A program made the position numbers and the translations under genes. This document shows positions 56,699-64,000 of a DNA stretch of 64,000 nucleotides, piece after piece. Each line of letters starts with the position of its first letter. Within the stretch, counting starts at the first letter, position 1. The notes beneath the pieces are model-generated. The model ran no database searches. It had not been told where the DNA came from and saw only the letters and a program-made list of their open reading frames with translations. The stretch spans positions 3,044,001 through 3,108,000 of the forward strand of contig NZ_CP067225.1 in the NCBI RefSeq assembly GCF_016617715.1, given 5' to 3'. Origin of the DNA: Paracoccus sp. MC1862 (GTDB lineage: Bacteria > Pseudomonadota > Alphaproteobacteria > Rhodobacterales > Rhodobacteraceae).

Positions 56699-57493
56699 TT
56701 AGGCTTGGGTCAAGGCATGGCCGGCCTCCTTGGTTTTCCTGGCTGCTGCGGCTGAGCTTGCCTTGAAGCGGAAGCTGTCGTTTCCGGTCTCCAGGATGTG
56801 GCAGCGGTGGGTGAGGCGATCGAGCAGCGCGGTGGTCATTTTGGCATCGCCGAAGACGGTGGCCCATTCGCTGAAGCTCAGGTTGGTGGTGATGACAACG
56901 CTGGTGCGCTCATAGAGCTTGCTCAGAAGGTGGAAGAGCAGCGCACCGCCTGAAGCGCTGAACGGCAAGTAGCCCAGTTCGTCCAGGATCACGAGATCGA
57001 GCCGGGTCAATCCCTCCGCGATCTGGCCCGCCTTGCCCTTGGTTTTCTCCTGCTCGAGGGCATTGACGAGTTCGATGGTGGAGAAGAAGCGGACCTTCCG
57101 GCGGTGGTGTTCGATGGCCTGGATGCCCAGGGCGGTTGCGACATGGGTCTTGCCGGTGCCCGGCCCGCCGATCAGCACGACATTCTGCGCGCCGTCGATG
57201 AACTCGCAGCGGTGGAGCTGGCGCACCGTGACCTCGTTGATCTCGCTGGCAGCGAAGTCGAAGCCCGAGAGATCCTTGTAGGCCGGGAAGCGCGCGGCCT
57301 TCATGTGATAGGCAATGGAGCGCACTTCGCGTTCCGCCAGTTCGGCCTTCAGCAGCTGGGACAGGATCGGCACGGCTGTCTCGAATGCCGGCGCCCCCTG
57401 TTCGATCAGGTCGGTGACGGCCTGGGCCATGCCGTGCATCTTCAGGCTGCGGAGCATGATGACGATGGCGCCGCTGGCGGGATCATGACGCAT
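56699..57493 (-). CDS. istB: IS21 helper ATPase IstB
   Basis: This 264-residue AAA+ protein helps target selection by the IS21 transposase. It has Walker A ([14 protein letters not shown]), Walker [13 protein letters not shown] and the sensor-like [12 protein letters not shown] 57493 overlaps the end of istA by 11 bases, showing coupling. It looks intact. Confidence 0.93.
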
Positions 57494-59012
57494 GGCGGTC
57501 TCCGATCTGCGCCCGCAGGTCGTCATAGCGTTCGACATTGGCCTTCGGCTCATGGCGCAGGATCAGCGCCTCCGGTGTGTCGATGTTCGGGCCGCCGGTC
57601 GTCTTGCCATCGATCAGCCTGTGCAGGAGATTCAACACATGGGTCTTGGTCGCGACGCCTTCGGCCAGGGCCATTTCCACAGCAACCAGCACAGCCTGTT
57701 CATCATGCTGCAGGACCAGCGCCAGGATATCGACCATCTCGCGATCGCCACCGGGTCGTCGCAGCATCTGGTCCTGCAACTGTCGGAAGGCCGCGGGCAG
57801 TTCCGCGAAGGGCGCACCGTTCCTGAGGGCACCCGGCTTGCGCTGGATGACGGCCAGATAATGCCGCCAGTCATAGATCGTGCGAGGCGGCAGGTGATGG
57901 GACCGCTGGATCACCCGCCCATGTTCGCACAGGATCTGTCCCTCGGCGGCAACCACCAGCCGATCCGGGTAGACCCTGAGGCTGACAGGACGGTTGGCAA
58001 AGGACGCCGGCACGCTGTAGCGGTTGCGCTCGAAGCTGATCAGGCAGGTGGGTGAGACACGCTTGCTCCGCTCGACGAAGCCGTCGAAGGCAGGCGGCAG
58101 CGGCATCAGCGCGGCCTGTTCTTCGGCCCAGGCGTCGGCGACGGTTCCGGGCAGAACCCCGTGCGGGATCTCGCGCCACAACTCCAGGCAGCGCCGTTCC
58201 AGCCAGGCGTTCAGCGCCGCCAGGTCAGGAAAGTTCGGCATCGGCTGCCACAAACGAGGCCGGGCATCCTGAACGTTCTTCTCGACCTGTCCCTTCTCCC
58301 ATCCCGCGGCAGGATTGCAGAACTCCGGCTCGAAGACATAGTGGTTGGTCATGGCGAGGAAGCGGATGTTGACCTGCCGTTCCTTGCCGCGGCCAACGCG
58401 GTCAACCGCTGTCTTCATGTTATCGTAGATGCCGCGACCCGGCACGCCGCCAAAGACGCGGAACCCGTGCCAATGGGCATCGAACAGCATCTCGTGGGTT
58501 TGCAGCAGATAGGCCCGAACCAGGAAGGCCCGGCTGTGTGCCAGCTTGATGTGGGCGACCTGAAGCTTCGTGCGCTCCCCGCCCAGAACCGCGTAGTCCT
58601 CGCTCCAATCGAACTGGAACGCCTCGCCCGGACGAAAGACCAAGGGGACGAAGGTGCCGCGGCCCGTCGTCTGCTGCTCGCGCTGCCGGTCCATCCGCCA
58701 TTGCCGGGCGAAGGCCGCGACCCGGCCGTAGGAGCCGGTGAAGCCGAGCGCCACGAGGTCGGCATGGAGTTGCTTCAGCGTCCGGCGCTGCTTGCGTGAC
58801 TTGCCGGCTTCCGTCTTCAGCCACGCCGCCAGCTTCTCGGAAAACGGATCGAGCTTGCTCGGCCGATCAGGCGTCGCGAACCTCGGCTCGATGGTCCCAG
58901 CGCTCAGATACTTCCTGATGGTGTTGCGCGACAGGCCGGTCCGCCGTGCGATCTCCCGGATCGGCAGCTTCTCCCGCAACGCCATGCGTCGGATGATGTT
59001 CAAAAGTCCCAT
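57483..59012 (-). CDS. istA: IS21 transposase IstA
   Basis: This 509-residue transposase has an N-terminal helix-turn-helix ([21 protein letters not shown]). An rve/DDE core has the D of FQFDWSEDY, the D of [13 protein letters not shown] and a downstream E in the [10 protein letters not shown] stretch. A C-terminal beta domain follows. ATG 59012 is used; ATG 59021 is possible. No frameshift is seen. Confidence 0.92.
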
Positions 59013-59123
59013 GTGGATCACTCCATTACCCCCGCCGCGCTCCGCTTTGGGGAAGGTTCACATGGGTCAGTTCTCAGTGGAAATTACGCCCCTACCCGGG
59101 TCAGTTCCGGGTGGAAATCAACA

Positions 59124-59675
59124 CGCATCGACTCTGTCTGGACCCTTGAGGACGAACGCCGGTTTCTCGACACCGCCCCCTCTCATATCGGCCTGGCGTT
59201 CATGCTGGCGATCTGGACCGGGCAACGGCAAGGCGACCTGCTGCGGCTCAAATGGTCCGCCTATGACGGCAAGGAAATCCGTCTGCGCCAGAGCAAGACA
59301 AGTGCGCGCGTCACTATTACTGTCGGGGAACCGCTGCGGCTGATCCTCGACAACACCGAGCGGACAACCGAAACGATTCTTGCCACGTCGCGCCAAACCC
59401 CGTGGACCGAGTCGGGCTTCCGCTCATCTTGGCGCACCGCCTGCGAAGCGGCGGGCATTGACGGACTTACCTTTCACGACCTGCGGGGGACGGCTGTGAC
59501 CCGCCTTGCTGTCGCTGGCGCGACGACGCCTGAGATTGGAACCATCACCGGGCACAGTCTCAAGCAAGTCGAAGCGATACTGGATTCCCACTACCTGAGC
59601 CGCGACTCGGCGCTTGGTCTGTCGGCTATCAGGAAGCGGGAAATCTACGAGGGAGCGATTAAGACTCCCAACTAA
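59124..59675 (+). pseudogene. Tyrosine recombinase, catalytic half only
   Basis: The frame begins at the IS edge as RIDSVWTLEDERRFL and runs for about 183 residues. Catalytic residues are present: Arg in TGQRQGDLLRL, Lys in QSKT, HxxR in FHDLRGTAVTRL, His in ITGHSLKQ and Tyr in DSHYLSR. The N-terminal arm/core-binding domain is missing, so the protein is unlikely to work. It points to tRNA-Met 57 bases away, as for an integrase next to its attachment site. Confidence 0.88.
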
Positions 59676-59732: not shown

Positions 59733-59809
59733 TGGTAGCGGAGGAGGGACTTGAACCCCCGACACGCGGATTATGATTCCGCTGCTCTAACCAACTGAGC
59801 TACTCCGCC
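59733..59809 (-). tRNA. tRNA-Met (anticodon CAT)
   Basis: The 77-nt gene has acceptor GGCGGAG, anticodon loop ATCATAA between GCGGA and TCCGC, and a T arm with GGTTCAAGTCC. An encoded CCA lies at 59733-59735. The first base pairs normally, so it is an elongator, not an initiator. Its 3' end faces the recombinase remnant. Confidence 0.95.
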
Positions 59810-60902: not shown

Positions 60903-61255
60903 CCCGCCGTTCGATGACCCGGGACGAGATCCTCGCGCTGATCCCCGAACTCTCGGACGAGGCGCTTGCGGTGCTGACCGAGGCGGGGATCGTCCAGCCC
61001 GTCCTGGGCGCGGCCGAGCCGCGCTTCCGCGAGATCGACGCGGCCCGCCTGCAGCTTGCCGTGGACCTTGAAGAGATCTTCCGGCTCGACCCCGACGGGC
61101 TTGCGCTGGTGCTGTCGCTCATCGACCAGTTGAACGGGTTGAAGCGAGAAATGCAGGCGGTGCTGGGCGCGCTGGCCGAAGAGCCGCCCGAAACCCGCGC
61201 CCGGCTGCGCCGCGTGATCCGGGAAACCCGCATCCTGCGGGTGCAGGGTGAGTGA
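60899..61255 (+). CDS. cbpM: Chaperone modulator CbpM-like
   Basis: This 118-residue protein has a MerR-like helical start (TRDEILALIPELSDEALAVL, then EAGIVQPVLGAAEPRFREI). The C-terminal half is a coiled coil (LVLSLIDQLNGLKREMQAVL). CbpM binds the J domain of CbpA and inhibits it. The gene order and overlap support this call. Confidence 0.85.
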   Translation: MTRRSMTRDEILALIPELSDEALAVLTEAGIVQPVLGAAEPRFREIDAARLQLAVDLEEIFRLDPDGLALVLSLIDQLNGLKREMQAVLGALAEEPPETRARLRRVIRETRILRVQGE

Positions 61256-61697
61256 CGGCGTCCGCCTGCGTCCCGGCGGCCCGCCTCTGGACCTCGCCGC
61301 GGCCGAGGGCGGCTGCCATTGCGGGGCGGTGCGTTTCCGGGTGAGGCTGGCCGAGGGCCTCGCCTCGGCCCGGTGCTGCGACTGCTCCTATTGCCGGATG
61401 CGGGGCAGCATCTCGGTCACTGTCGCCGAGGGCGGGTTCGAACTGCTCTCGGGCGCTGATCGCCTCGCGACCTATCGCTTCAACACCGGGGTCGCGGCCC
61501 ATCACTTCTGCCGGTGCTGCGGCATCAACACCCATCATGAACGCCGGTCGGTGCCGGGGCAGGTTGCCGTCAGCGCCGCCTGCCTGGACGGGGTGAGTCC
61601 CTTCGATTTCCTTGACCTGCCGGTCTCGGACGGGGTGCATCACCCCTCGGACGGGGGCGGCGGACGCGCCGGGATGCTGCGCTACAGTCCCGCGTAA
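61248..61697 (+). CDS. GFA family zinc-binding protein
   Basis: This 149-residue protein has three cysteine clusters: GGCHCGAVRFRV, CCDCSYCRM and FCRCCGINTHHE. These form the two zinc sites of the glutathione-dependent formaldehyde-activating (GFA/CENP-V) family. Activity on S-hydroxymethylglutathione is known for few members. GTG 61248 overlaps cbpM. The 3' end overlaps rlmJ by 16 bases, convergent. Confidence 0.85.
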   Translation: MSDGVRLRPGGPPLDLAAAEGGCHCGAVRFRVRLAEGLASARCCDCSYCRMRGSISVTVAEGGFELLSGADRLATYRFNTGVAAHHFCRCCGINTHHERRSVPGQVAVSAACLDGVSPFDFLDLPVSDGVHHPSDGGGGRAGMLRYSPA

Positions 61698-62458
61698 AGG
61701 GCGGCAAGACGGTCCGCCTCGGCATCCAGCCCATAGGGCGGGTTGATGACGAACATCCCCGATCCGACCATGCCATGTCCCGGACGGGCCGGGGGAAAGC
61801 GCACCTCGGACCGCAGCGCCTGCGGATGGGTGGCGGCCAGCGCCCCGACCATGGGGCGGTGGCGGTCGTCGGTCAGGACCGGATACCACAGGGCGATCAC
61901 GCCGACGTTCCACTTGCGCGCCATGCGGGTGATCCAGTCGGACATGCGGTCATAGTCGGGCTTGACCTCGTAGCTCGGGTCCACCAGCAGCATCCCGCGC
62001 CGGGGCGTCGGCGGAATCAGGGCGTTGGCCATGGCGAAGCCGTCCTGATGGTGAAGGCGCGCGAAACCGGCGACCTCGGCCAGCGCGGCTTGTTCGGCCG
62101 GGTGCAGTTCCGCCAGATGGGCGGCATCCTGCGGCCGCAGGAAATGCGCTGCGATCAGCGGAGAGCCGGGATAGGAATCGGGGCCATGCTGCGCACGGAT
62201 GGCTGCCAGCGCCTCGCGCAAGGGGTGGTCCTGCGGCAGCCAGCCCGAAGACAGCGCCCTGACGATGCCCACTTCCGCCTCGCCGGTCTTCAGTGCGGCT
62301 TCGGCACGCAGGTTGTAAAGCCCGCGGCCGGCATGGGTCTCGATATAGCTGAGGGGCTTGGGCTTCCCGGTCAGCCGCGCCAATGCGGTCGCAAGCAGCG
62401 CGTGCTTGTGCACATCCGCCAGGTTCCCGGCATGAAAGGCGTGCTGATAGGACAACAT
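61682..62458 (-). CDS. rlmJ: 23S rRNA adenine-2030 N6-methyltransferase
   Basis: This 258-residue enzyme methylates A2030 of 23S rRNA. It begins MLSYQHAFHAGNLADVHKHA, a near-invariant RlmJ start, has YIETHAGRGLYNL as SAM motif I, and MLLVDPSYEVKPDY with the catalytic DPSYE. Length is slightly short but complete. Just upstream on the same strand lies the cuckoo RNA array. Confidence 0.93.
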   Translation of the reverse strand: MLSYQHAFHAGNLADVHKHALLATALARLTGKPKPLSYIETHAGRGLYNLRAEAALKTGEAEVGIVRALSSGWLPQDHPLREALAAIRAQHGPDSYPGSPLIAAHFLRPQDAAHLAELHPAEQAALAEVAGFARLHHQDGFAMANALIPPTPRRGMLLVDPSYEVKPDYDRMSDWITRMARKWNVGVIALWYPVLTDDRHRPMVGALAATHPQALRSEVRFPPARPGHGMVGSGMFVINPPYGLDAEADRLAALYAGL

Positions 62459-62501
62459 GGCGCGTGCCTAGCCGCCGCTGTCACCGATGGAAAGAGAGGA
62501 A

Positions 62502-62612
62502 GCGGCGACCCCGGGGAGGAGGAGAGGGGTCGCCGCCGACAACGCGCCCAGGGAGGAGGAGAGGGCGGCGTTGCAATCGGATCGCTGCCGGGGAGGAGGT
62601 CGGCTGCGATCC
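62502..62612 (-). ncRNA. Triple hairpin array with CCTCCTCCC loops (cuckoo/CcsR-like RNA)
   Basis: Read on the minus strand, three successive stem-loops each show a CCTCCTCCC-type (anti-Shine-Dalgarno) loop. Stem 1: 62502-62512 with 62526-62536 (11 perfect pairs, 13-base loop). Stem 2: 62541-62549 with 62563-62572 (one bulge, 13-base loop). Stem 3: 62579-62589 with 62602-62612 (one mismatch, 12-base loop). This matches the cuckoo RNA family, which includes the stress-induced CcsR RNAs of Rhodobacter sphaeroides. The loops can pair with ribosome-binding sites or with CcaF-type proteins. No short DUF1127 (CcaF1-like) gene is visible upstream. Confidence 0.82.
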
Positions 62613-62895
62613 ATGTCCGTAAGATGGCCCGGTTGCTGCAAATGCACAACGGCTTTTTGCGCCTATCTGTTATGCTGCAGGCGCATGGTTGAACCGCCTC
62701 AGGGTTGTTCGCTTCCTAGAAGTTCGCAGAAATCTATTATCATACACTCGGAAGATGTATCACCTATGTGTGTGACGCAACGGAAATCAGGAACTTTTTT
62801 CTTAATGCTGCAAAGCAGCATTTTTCCGGCGTCTGGTTCCCGCAGATGCCAGCGCCTATATCGCCCCAAGGACAGCAAGAAGGATGGGCGGCAGG
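62613..62895. other. AT-richer intergenic region upstream of mrp
   Basis: This 283-bp stretch has lower GC than its surroundings, especially 62725-62825. It should hold the minus-strand promoter of the cuckoo array and the plus-strand promoter of mrp. An extended -10-like TGTTATGCT lies at 62668-62676 on the plus strand. I see no gene. Confidence 0.5.
62804..62825 (+). terminator. Rho-independent terminator on the plus strand upstream of mrp
   Basis: A perfect 8-bp stem, AATGCTGC (62804-62811) with GCAGCATT (62815-62822), has an AAA loop and is followed by TTT. It ends a plus-strand transcript about 70 bases before the mrp ATG. No annotated plus-strand gene lies before it, so it may end a small RNA or act as a leader attenuator. 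Confidence 0.75.
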
Positions 62896-64000
62896 ATGAC
62901 GGCGAATCGCGACAGGGTCATGCAGGAACTTTCGGCCATCCCCGTTCCGGGCGGCAGCAATCTCGTCGATGCCGACCTTGTGCGCGCCCTGACCATCACG
63001 GATGACGAGGTGAGCTTCGTCATCGAGGCCCCGGATGCGGTCCTTGCCCGTGCGCTGGACAGCGCAAGCAAGGATGCCGAGGCGCGATTGCGCGCTCTCG
63101 GGTTTTCAAGGGTCCGCATCGTCACCACCGCGCAGGCCGGCCGCGCGCCGCAGGTCACCGCCCGCTCTGGTCAGGGGGCGGACCCCGGCGCAGGCGCCCC
63201 CCCCAGCCTGAAGCTCGGCCGTCACCCCACACCGCAGGCCGGCCCGGAGACAATTCCCGGCGTGGACCGCATCCTTGCCATCGGCTCGGGCAAGGGCGGG
63301 GTCGGCAAGTCCACGCTGACGACGAACCTCGCCGTCGCGCTGGCCCGCGCCGGGCGGCGGGTGGGGGTGCTGGATGCCGACATCTACGGCCCCAGCCAGC
63401 CCCGGATGCTGGGCGTGACCGACCGCCCCCGCAGCGAGAACGACCGCATCATTCCCATCCGCGCCCATGGCGTCACCATGATGTCGCTGGGCTTGATGAT
63501 GAAGGAAGGCGAGGCCGTCGTCTGGCGCGGCCCGATGCTGATGGGCGCGCTGCAGCAGATGCTGAACCAGGTGGAATGGGGCGAGCTTGACGCGCTGCTG
63601 GTGGACCTGCCCCCCGGCACCGGCGACGTCCAGCTGAGCCTGTGCCAGAAGGCGCCGGTGACGGGTGCCATCATCGTGTCCACCCCGCAGGACGTGGCGC
63701 TGATCGACGCCCGCCGCGCCATCGACATGTTCGACAAGCTGAAGACCCCAATTCTGGGGCTGGTCGAGAACATGTCGTCCTATGTCTGCCCGAACTGCGG
63801 GCACGAGGCGCATCTGTTCGGCCATGGCGGGGTCGCCGCCGAGGCGCAGGCGCGCGGCTTGCCCTTCCTCGGTTCGGTGCCGCTGGACCTGTCGGTGCGA
63901 CTCGGGGGCGACTCGGGCCAGCCGGTGGCCCTGGGGCAGGGGCCGATTGCTGATGCCTATGCCGATCTCGCGCAACGGCTGGTCCGGGGCGGGATGGCCT
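62896..64000 (+). CDS. mrp: Mrp/ApbC iron-sulfur cluster carrier ATPase (3' end beyond window)
   Basis: This incomplete protein shows about 368 residues. The N-terminal MrpN/FeS assembly domain (LVRALTITDDEVSFVIEAP) is followed by an Ala/Pro linker. The P-loop ATPase core has AIGSGKGGVGKSTLTTNL near 138. GVLDADIYGPSQPRML, LLVDLPPGTGDVQLSLC and the scaffold CxxC YVCPNCGHEA follow. It holds and transfers [4Fe-4S] clusters. ATG 62896 is used; ATG 62884 in the same frame is possible. Confidence 0.93.
   Translation, partial: MTANRDRVMQELSAIPVPGGSNLVDADLVRALTITDDEVSFVIEAPDAVLARALDSASKDAEARLRALGFSRVRIVTTAQAGRAPQVTARSGQGADPGAGAPPSLKLGRHPTPQAGPETIPGVDRILAIGSGKGGVGKSTLTTNLAVALARAGRRVGVLDADIYGPSQPRMLGVTDRPRSENDRIIPIRAHGVTMMSLGLMMKEGEAVVWRGPMLMGALQQMLNQVEWGELDALLVDLPPGTGDVQLSLCQKAPVTGAIIVSTPQDVALIDARRAIDMFDKLKTPILGLVENMSSYVCPNCGHEAHLFGHGGVAAEAQARGLPFLGSVPLDLSVRLGGDSGQPVALGQGPIADAYADLAQRLVRGGMA

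Follow-up and report, generated by a model that had tools for sequence, protein, structure and literature searches.

A three-hairpin RNA array of the cuckoo kind upstream of rlmJ in Paracoccus sp. MC1862, with no DUF1127 gene beside it

The cuckoo RNA family and the CIN1 locus reportedly go back to Reinkensmeier and Giegerich in 2015. Cuckoo-type forms with three and with four hairpins have been described (PMC3927594), and CIN1 denotes the association of cuckoo RNAs with short DUF1127 genes (PMC10253847). In Rhodobacter sphaeroides, CcaF1 and RNase E are described as processing the long ccaF1-CcsR transcript, for which the sigma factors RpoHI/RpoHII are named (PMC10253847), and CcsR1-4 are reported to target the FlhR mRNA (PMC8307010). 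The function of small DUF1127 proteins is disputed, with RNA binding put forward for CcaF1 of Rhodobacter, protein-protein interaction for Agrobacterium, and no sign of RNA binding for YjiS of Salmonella (PMC12501420).

The alpha-r14 RNAs are described with three hairpins (PMC10746234), and in one of them, NfeR1 of Sinorhizobium meliloti, three loops redundantly silence targets at translation-initiation regions, with sigma-70 as the sigma factor (both PMC7143759, PMC10746234). The NfeR1 promoter is bound by LsrB at TGCA-N6-GCAT, as shown by gel shift (PMC10746234). LsrB has been termed unique to Rhizobiales (PMC11975290), and VtlR/LsrB has been termed present in many Alphaproteobacteria, with a different box, GCAT-N3-TG-N3-T, proposed (PMC7486931).

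A cuckoo-type array with conserved loops and paired stems

The window, a stretch of 64,000 nucleotides from Paracoccus sp. MC1862, carries on its minus strand a hairpin array that is a real feature of a known kind, cuckoo/alpha-r14/CcsR. Three adjacent hairpins with a common pyrimidine loop and differing stems had been predicted at 62502-62612, and both coordinates and loops were confirmed: hairpin 1 (SL1) occupies 62579-62612 with CCUCCUCCC at 62591-62599 of its loop; hairpin 2 (SL2) occupies 62540-62573 with its motif at 62551-62559; and hairpin 3 (SL3), a possible weak terminator, occupies 62502-62536 with its motif at 62514-62522. All three loops contain CCUCCUCCC, lengthened to CUCCUCCUCCC in SL2 and SL3, and the stems are well paired and differ in sequence. 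The genome of 3.63 Mb holds 37 copies of CCTCCTCCC, three of them within 86 bases at the array, and a triple pattern with spacing of 20-50 nt occurs once, at the array, with no match to the reversed-pattern control.

The original prediction had proposed kinship with cuckoo/CcsR RNAs, along with a covariance-model search, and the kinship was borne out. Rfam model ar14 (RF02344) matches over its full length (model positions 1-123 of 123) with 54.1 bits and E 4.3e-9, below its gathering score of 58.8, and CcsR1 (RF02791) covers hairpins 2-3 with 47.4 bits and E 1.7e-10, below its gathering score of 65.3. Neither model gives a convincing second locus in the genome, their next-best E values being 0.2 (ar14) and 0.02 (CcsR1). 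Across the genus sample, ar14 matches at E<=0.001 are found in 120/125 genomes and exceed the curated cut-off in 39/125. The array has the at least two adjacent hairpins with CCUCCUCCC loops, and the variable yet paired stems, that define cuckoo-type RNAs in the broad sense, and it also has the three hairpins, each with an unpaired motif in its loop, that define alpha-r14. That there are three hairpins had been singled out as notable, a point that does not hold up given the three of alpha-r14 RNAs (PMC10746234) and the up to 19 of the array's relatives.

Each of the described systems resembles the array in part. It shares with alpha-r14/NfeR1 the three hairpins, one CCUCCUCCC per loop, differing stems, a similar length, a promoter of its own immediately upstream (predicted in the case of the array) and a LysR-type box, which lies at about -71 to -59 (TGC-N7-GCAT) compared with -72 to -60 for the TGCA-N6-GCAT of NfeR1 (PMC10746234); it differs in its ar14 score (54.1 < 58.8), in lacking a terminal run of four T and in its surrounding genes. 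The ccaF1-CcsR1-4 operon of R. sphaeroides has the same loop motif and the same promoter layout, the latter as seen in Cereibacter johrii, a close relative of R. sphaeroides, and most relatives of the window within the genus retain a DUF1127 gene before the array. Unlike that operon, the window has no DUF1127 gene, three hairpins instead of eight motifs, a CcsR1 score of 47.4 against a cut-off of 65.3, and rlmJ downstream. The adjacent hairpins, CCUCCUCCC loops and variable stems are also those of the cuckoo family and the CIN1 locus, of which the window copy differs in being a CIN1-type locus minus the DUF1127 gene.

Folding agreed with the minus strand proposed for the array, which gave a z of -2.90 with 2/200 shuffles equally good, compared with -1.31 and 20/200 for the plus strand; structure on the plus strand was rejected because of this weaker fold. 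The proposal that the stems are kept by compensatory change is supported by a stem swap test on 1136 motifs from 119 genomes of the genus, in which a motif's own stems averaged -22.65 kcal/mol, compared with -13.95 kcal/mol when 3' flanks were exchanged between genomes and -13.68 kcal/mol when they were exchanged within a genome, the GC-rich flanks leaving even swapped stems at an average of about -14 kcal/mol. In the stretch of three hairpins compared across 12 orthologues, 90.6% of cells were paired, as against 34-52% in slid controls. Double changes occurred at 6/32 pairs in the 12 sequences of the array locus, a number that is not exceptional alone because 42/500 shuffles also reach it, making the swap test the stronger evidence.

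Promoter, LysR-type box and 3' end

A predicted promoter lies directly upstream of hairpin 1 on the minus strand, with a -35 element TTGTGC (62644-62649) and, after a 17-nt spacer, a -10 element CATCTT (62621-62626), from whose position the RNA would start near 62614. Further up is a box resembling those of LysR-type regulators, TGC-N7-GCAT (T-N11-A) at 62672-62685, about -71 to -59 from the predicted start. The promoter pattern recurs upstream of the DUF1127 gene or the array in 111/121 loci of the genus, and 97 of these 111 promoters carry the TGC-N7-GCA box, compared with 9/111 when a window lying 100 nt more upstream served as control. The distance from box to -35 is 36 or 37 nt in 94 of the 97 cases. 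The composite of box and promoter, at the spacing of the window and with at most two mismatches, occurs once in the genome. Read by eye, this layout recurs in C. johrii (L230), ahead of its ccaF1-type gene and an array of eight motifs, and on the strength of this layout and of the 111/121 genus loci the predicted promoter matches that of ccaF1-CcsR operons as represented by C. johrii.

Similar boxes occur elsewhere. The genome's other DUF1127 gene (L064; G000:C1:2363326-2363343) has upstream a TGCA-N6-GCAT box, ATGCATTTTCTGCATGGC, and DUF1127 genes and array may therefore share one LysR-type regulator. The looser pattern ATGC-N7-GCATRRC has 16 occurrences in the genome, compared with one for its reversed control. 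An inverted repeat resembling TGC-N4-GCA, which could be an operator, is found in the -35/spacer region of 99/111 genus promoters (62637-62646 of the window, minus strand).

At the other end of the arrays, five or more T within an 8-nt stretch where the stem ends mark 95/121 last hairpins and 2/1041 other hairpins, and a run of four T marks 72/121 last hairpins compared with 2/1041 others. From these tails, the last hairpin would normally double as a terminator in arrays of the genus. The tail after SL3 of the window, TTCCTCTCTTT, has five T in eight in a mixed T/C sequence and no run of four T, which leaves the 3' end of the array uncertain; termination after SL3 is plausible, and would be weaker than in most arrays. 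A terminator scan was negative at the array, which says little because the scan admits loops of 3-8 nt only and those of the array are 13 nt long.

Distribution of the array and loss of the DUF1127 gene

The original prediction had suggested looking for the array before rlmJ in other Paracoccus genomes. Within the genus, 122 of 125 genomes yielded rlmJ, and the DNA upstream of it was taken up to 1,500 nt for 30 loci and up to 2,500 nt for 92. Hairpins of the cuckoo kind are present in 121/122, the exception being G057, whose contig extends only 198 nt upstream of the gene, and the distance from rlmJ reaches about 2 kb in G082. Reading towards rlmJ, loci of the genus usually start with the promoter, followed by the DUF1127 gene and then the hairpin array, and a Mrp/ApbC-type iron-sulfur carrier gene is divergent upstream (105/122 loci; in the window at 62884-63997 on the plus strand, with an uncertain start codon and a frame open to the window end). 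In 104/122 loci the array comes after a DUF1127 (ccaF1-type) gene of the same strand, and in 15 this gene is absent, the other three being undecidable at contig ends (G057, G068 and G085, set aside in the comparison that follows).

Arrays are shorter where the gene is absent, with 3 to 7 hairpins (median 5) in the 15 genomes lacking it, compared with 5 to 19 (median 10) in the 104 that have it, and the seven genomes with three hairpins, the window included, all lack it. A rank test of this relationship gives p 4e-9, which ignores kinship and therefore overstates independence. Hairpins were counted as the motif CCTCC[TC]CC with paired flanks; an earlier counter gave too few in some arrays (two instead of three in the window), so that a set of 116 arrays used below omits the six genomes to which that counter had assigned fewer than three, including the genome of the window, and the tail test was redone on 121 genomes.

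Beyond the genus, the triple pattern was found in 86/295 genomes of a family-level sample, compared with 7/295 for the reversed control, six of which also have the true pattern. In the neighbourhoods of 30 of the 86 pattern-bearing genomes, each about 3 kb or less, a DUF1127 gene lies upstream on the same strand in 28 and downstream in L193, and none is present within the stretch in L188. A CcsR-derived pattern yielded 28 named loci, of which 23 hold arrays and the other five appear to be chance matches; 22/23 have a DUF1127 gene, the stretch of the remaining one (L244) ending about 100 nt upstream. One array in the family, L190 (G288:C1, from 334949), comprises 26 CCTCCTCCC motifs with near-identical units of about 140 nt and resembles a recent tandem amplification of the array.

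In the window locus the DUF1127 gene is absent, as had been predicted, and the single DUF1127 match of the genome lies about 0.74 Mb away. The absence thus stood, and its standing as a feature of the locus was qualified: it is a secondary loss in the window's group, most loci of the genus keeping the gene. In an rlmJ tree, built on the first 300 nt and with a bootstrap that had not settled, 14 of the 15 genomes without the gene fall in one group of 16 members (support 99/76), whose remaining members, G088 and G108, still carry it; G098, which lacks it, is placed outside. From these placements in a weak tree, the gene was probably lost more than once. Of the 14 members of the group whose locus lacks the gene, 13 have exactly one DUF1127 match in their genome and G050 has two, which suggests loss rather than relocation.

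The shrinkage of the array can be followed in the same comparison. SL1-SL3 of the window correspond to hairpins 1-3 of relatives with six and seven hairpins, the rlmJ-proximal hairpins are missing, and the counterpart of SL3 in longer arrays is an internal hairpin. What is new is this derived state, a cuckoo locus that keeps the RNA and the promoter without its DUF1127 partner and most of its hairpins. A literature search found nothing about the array locus in Paracoccus and no paper joining CcaF1 with Paracoccus, and the main text of a survey of small RNAs in Paracoccus denitrificans (PMC5107571) does not mention ar14, CcsR, Rfam or DUF1127.

Other genes of the window were also recorded. A GFA-domain protein (glutathione-dependent formaldehyde-activating type, PF04828) is encoded on the far side of rlmJ at 61248-61697 (plus strand). 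An IS21-type transposase gene (istA, 57483-59021, minus strand) adjoins a fragment of the phage integrase family (59013-59675, plus strand), near which lies a tRNA gene (59736-59809), as of an integration site.

A probable stand-alone small RNA

The three hairpins probably form a small RNA of the cuckoo (alpha-r14/CcsR) kind that stands alone and acts in trans, with its own promoter and redundant loops that would block translation, a reading supported by the full-length ar14 match, the arrays and promoter found throughout the genus and the precedent of NfeR1. The ancestor would have been the operon widespread in the family, consisting of promoter, DUF1127 gene of the ccaF1 type and hairpin array. 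The lineage of the window would then have lost that gene as well as the hairpins nearest to rlmJ, bringing the old promoter directly to hairpin 1. The transcript would start near 62614 and extend for about 115-130 nt, and because the promoter abuts hairpin 1 its 5' end would need no processing, so that this ready-made RNA may not need processing by CcaF1/RNase E. Rigid stems would hold the loops open and protect the RNA, and the anti-Shine-Dalgarno sequence of the loops, three probably redundant copies of it, would base-pair with mRNA targets at their G-rich ribosome-binding sites, blocking translation.

By analogy with NfeR1 and CcsR1-4, the loops should pair with G-rich ribosome-binding sites, and the pattern GGGAGGAG-N3-11-ATG has 21 occurrences in the genome compared with five for its reversed control. 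The 21 entries comprise 20 distinct sites, 18 of them with a frame of at least 60 codons, and all 18 were scanned. Candidate targets include a PQQ-dependent dehydrogenase of the methanol/ethanol type (just below its cut-off and with a frame that the stretch truncates), two aldehyde dehydrogenases, trimethylamine monooxygenase, malate-CoA ligase beta, a MauM/NapG ferredoxin, DctP and 2-hydroxyacyl-CoA lyase. Enrichment for C1 metabolism was first considered, given that the FlhR mRNA is a reported target of CcsR RNAs (PMC8307010), and then rejected: a control set built on another strong ribosome-binding site, AAAGGAGA (25 entries, 14 proteins scanned), likewise held C1-type genes, among its members being formyltetrahydrofolate deformylase, a MauG-like protein and ProX, and no target enrichment is therefore claimed.

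Other readings depend largely on rlmJ (61682-62458, minus strand; PF04378, E 1e-45), which encodes a 23S rRNA methyltransferase and lies 43 nt downstream of SL3, in near agreement with the 44 bases originally given. This short distance had raised the idea of a leader acting in cis, in which case the hairpins would form the 5' untranslated region of rlmJ and control its transcription read-through or its translation. The last hairpin has a U-rich tail in 63/68 short-gap arrays, read-through past which could supply rlmJ, and the run of four T that is usual there is missing from the window array. Against these points, rlmJ adjoins the array in only 1/30 family stretches (L196, from another genus) and in 0/18 named array loci with a visible downstream side, the stretch ending within about 100 nt downstream in five of the 23 (L226, L232, L233, L238 and L240); the last hairpin is at least 300 nt from rlmJ in 32/116 genus arrays; and no G-rich site matching the loops is present at the rlmJ start. 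In some of the long-gap genomes the array ends about 320 nt from rlmJ, and in one example, L131, this interval holds a small open frame that resembles a DUF2945 protein.

The gene also has a promoter-like element of its own at 62466-62494 (minus strand), consisting of CTTTCC (62489-62494), a 17-nt spacer and CTAGGC (62466-62471), 7 nt from the ATG. Its T-T-C/T (-35 to -33) and TA (-12/-11) occur together in 45/72 short-gap and 36/49 long-gap loci, and sliding both words upstream by 3-15 nt brings the average down to 0.00. Of the two classes the long-gap one is the more telling, since the T block runs into the terminator tail where the gap is short. The element fits a separate rlmJ promoter with a near-leaderless start, as judged from its position and conservation, and its CTAGG block could alternatively be a weak ribosome-binding site. 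Its constant distance from the ATG in both gap classes is what an independent, near-leaderless transcript would predict, and with adjacency so rare beyond the genus the cis-acting leader has little support and is quite improbable. A combined arrangement, in which RNase E or termination frees the small RNA from a transcript that also runs into rlmJ, is unlikely as well: it agrees with the cutting of CcsR RNAs out of the longer ccaF1-CcsR transcript by RNase E (PMC10253847) and with the only moderately U-rich tail of SL3, but the rlmJ element makes a shared transcript unnecessary. The same element and the rarity of this adjacency outside the genus mean that rlmJ is probably incidental to the function of the RNA.

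That the DUF1127 gene and hairpins went missing in one and the same group might also point to a decaying relic, an array that shrinks and no longer functions once its protein partner has gone; with loops invariant and stems still paired in the closest relatives while the surroundings change, and with promoter and box retained, this is very unlikely. Least credible of all, to the point of near exclusion, is a small protein encoded by the 48-codon frame that is open across the array in the window from an ATG at 62614, a candidate rejected because the frame is not conserved in five near relatives, three having a stop at codon 10 and two a different frame.

For the stand-alone RNA, it is tentatively proposed that the lineage represents a natural deletion, in which a protein-assisted operon of several RNAs became a self-contained NfeR1-like RNA whose LysR-box promoter fires directly into hairpin 1, with no need for CcaF1/RNase E. 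Since the array has outlasted the protein, probably on more than one occasion, the RNA would on this proposal be the conserved core of the system and the DUF1127 protein a dispensable helper, the need for which would scale with array length. The common LysR-type box also suggests that rhizobial alpha-r14 RNAs and the Rhodobacteraceae operons of the CcsR type have a promoter plan in common, a point not found stated in the literature search. With the DUF1127 gene gone while RNA and promoter stay, this lineage offers a natural and clean test of whether the protein is needed for maturation of the RNA.
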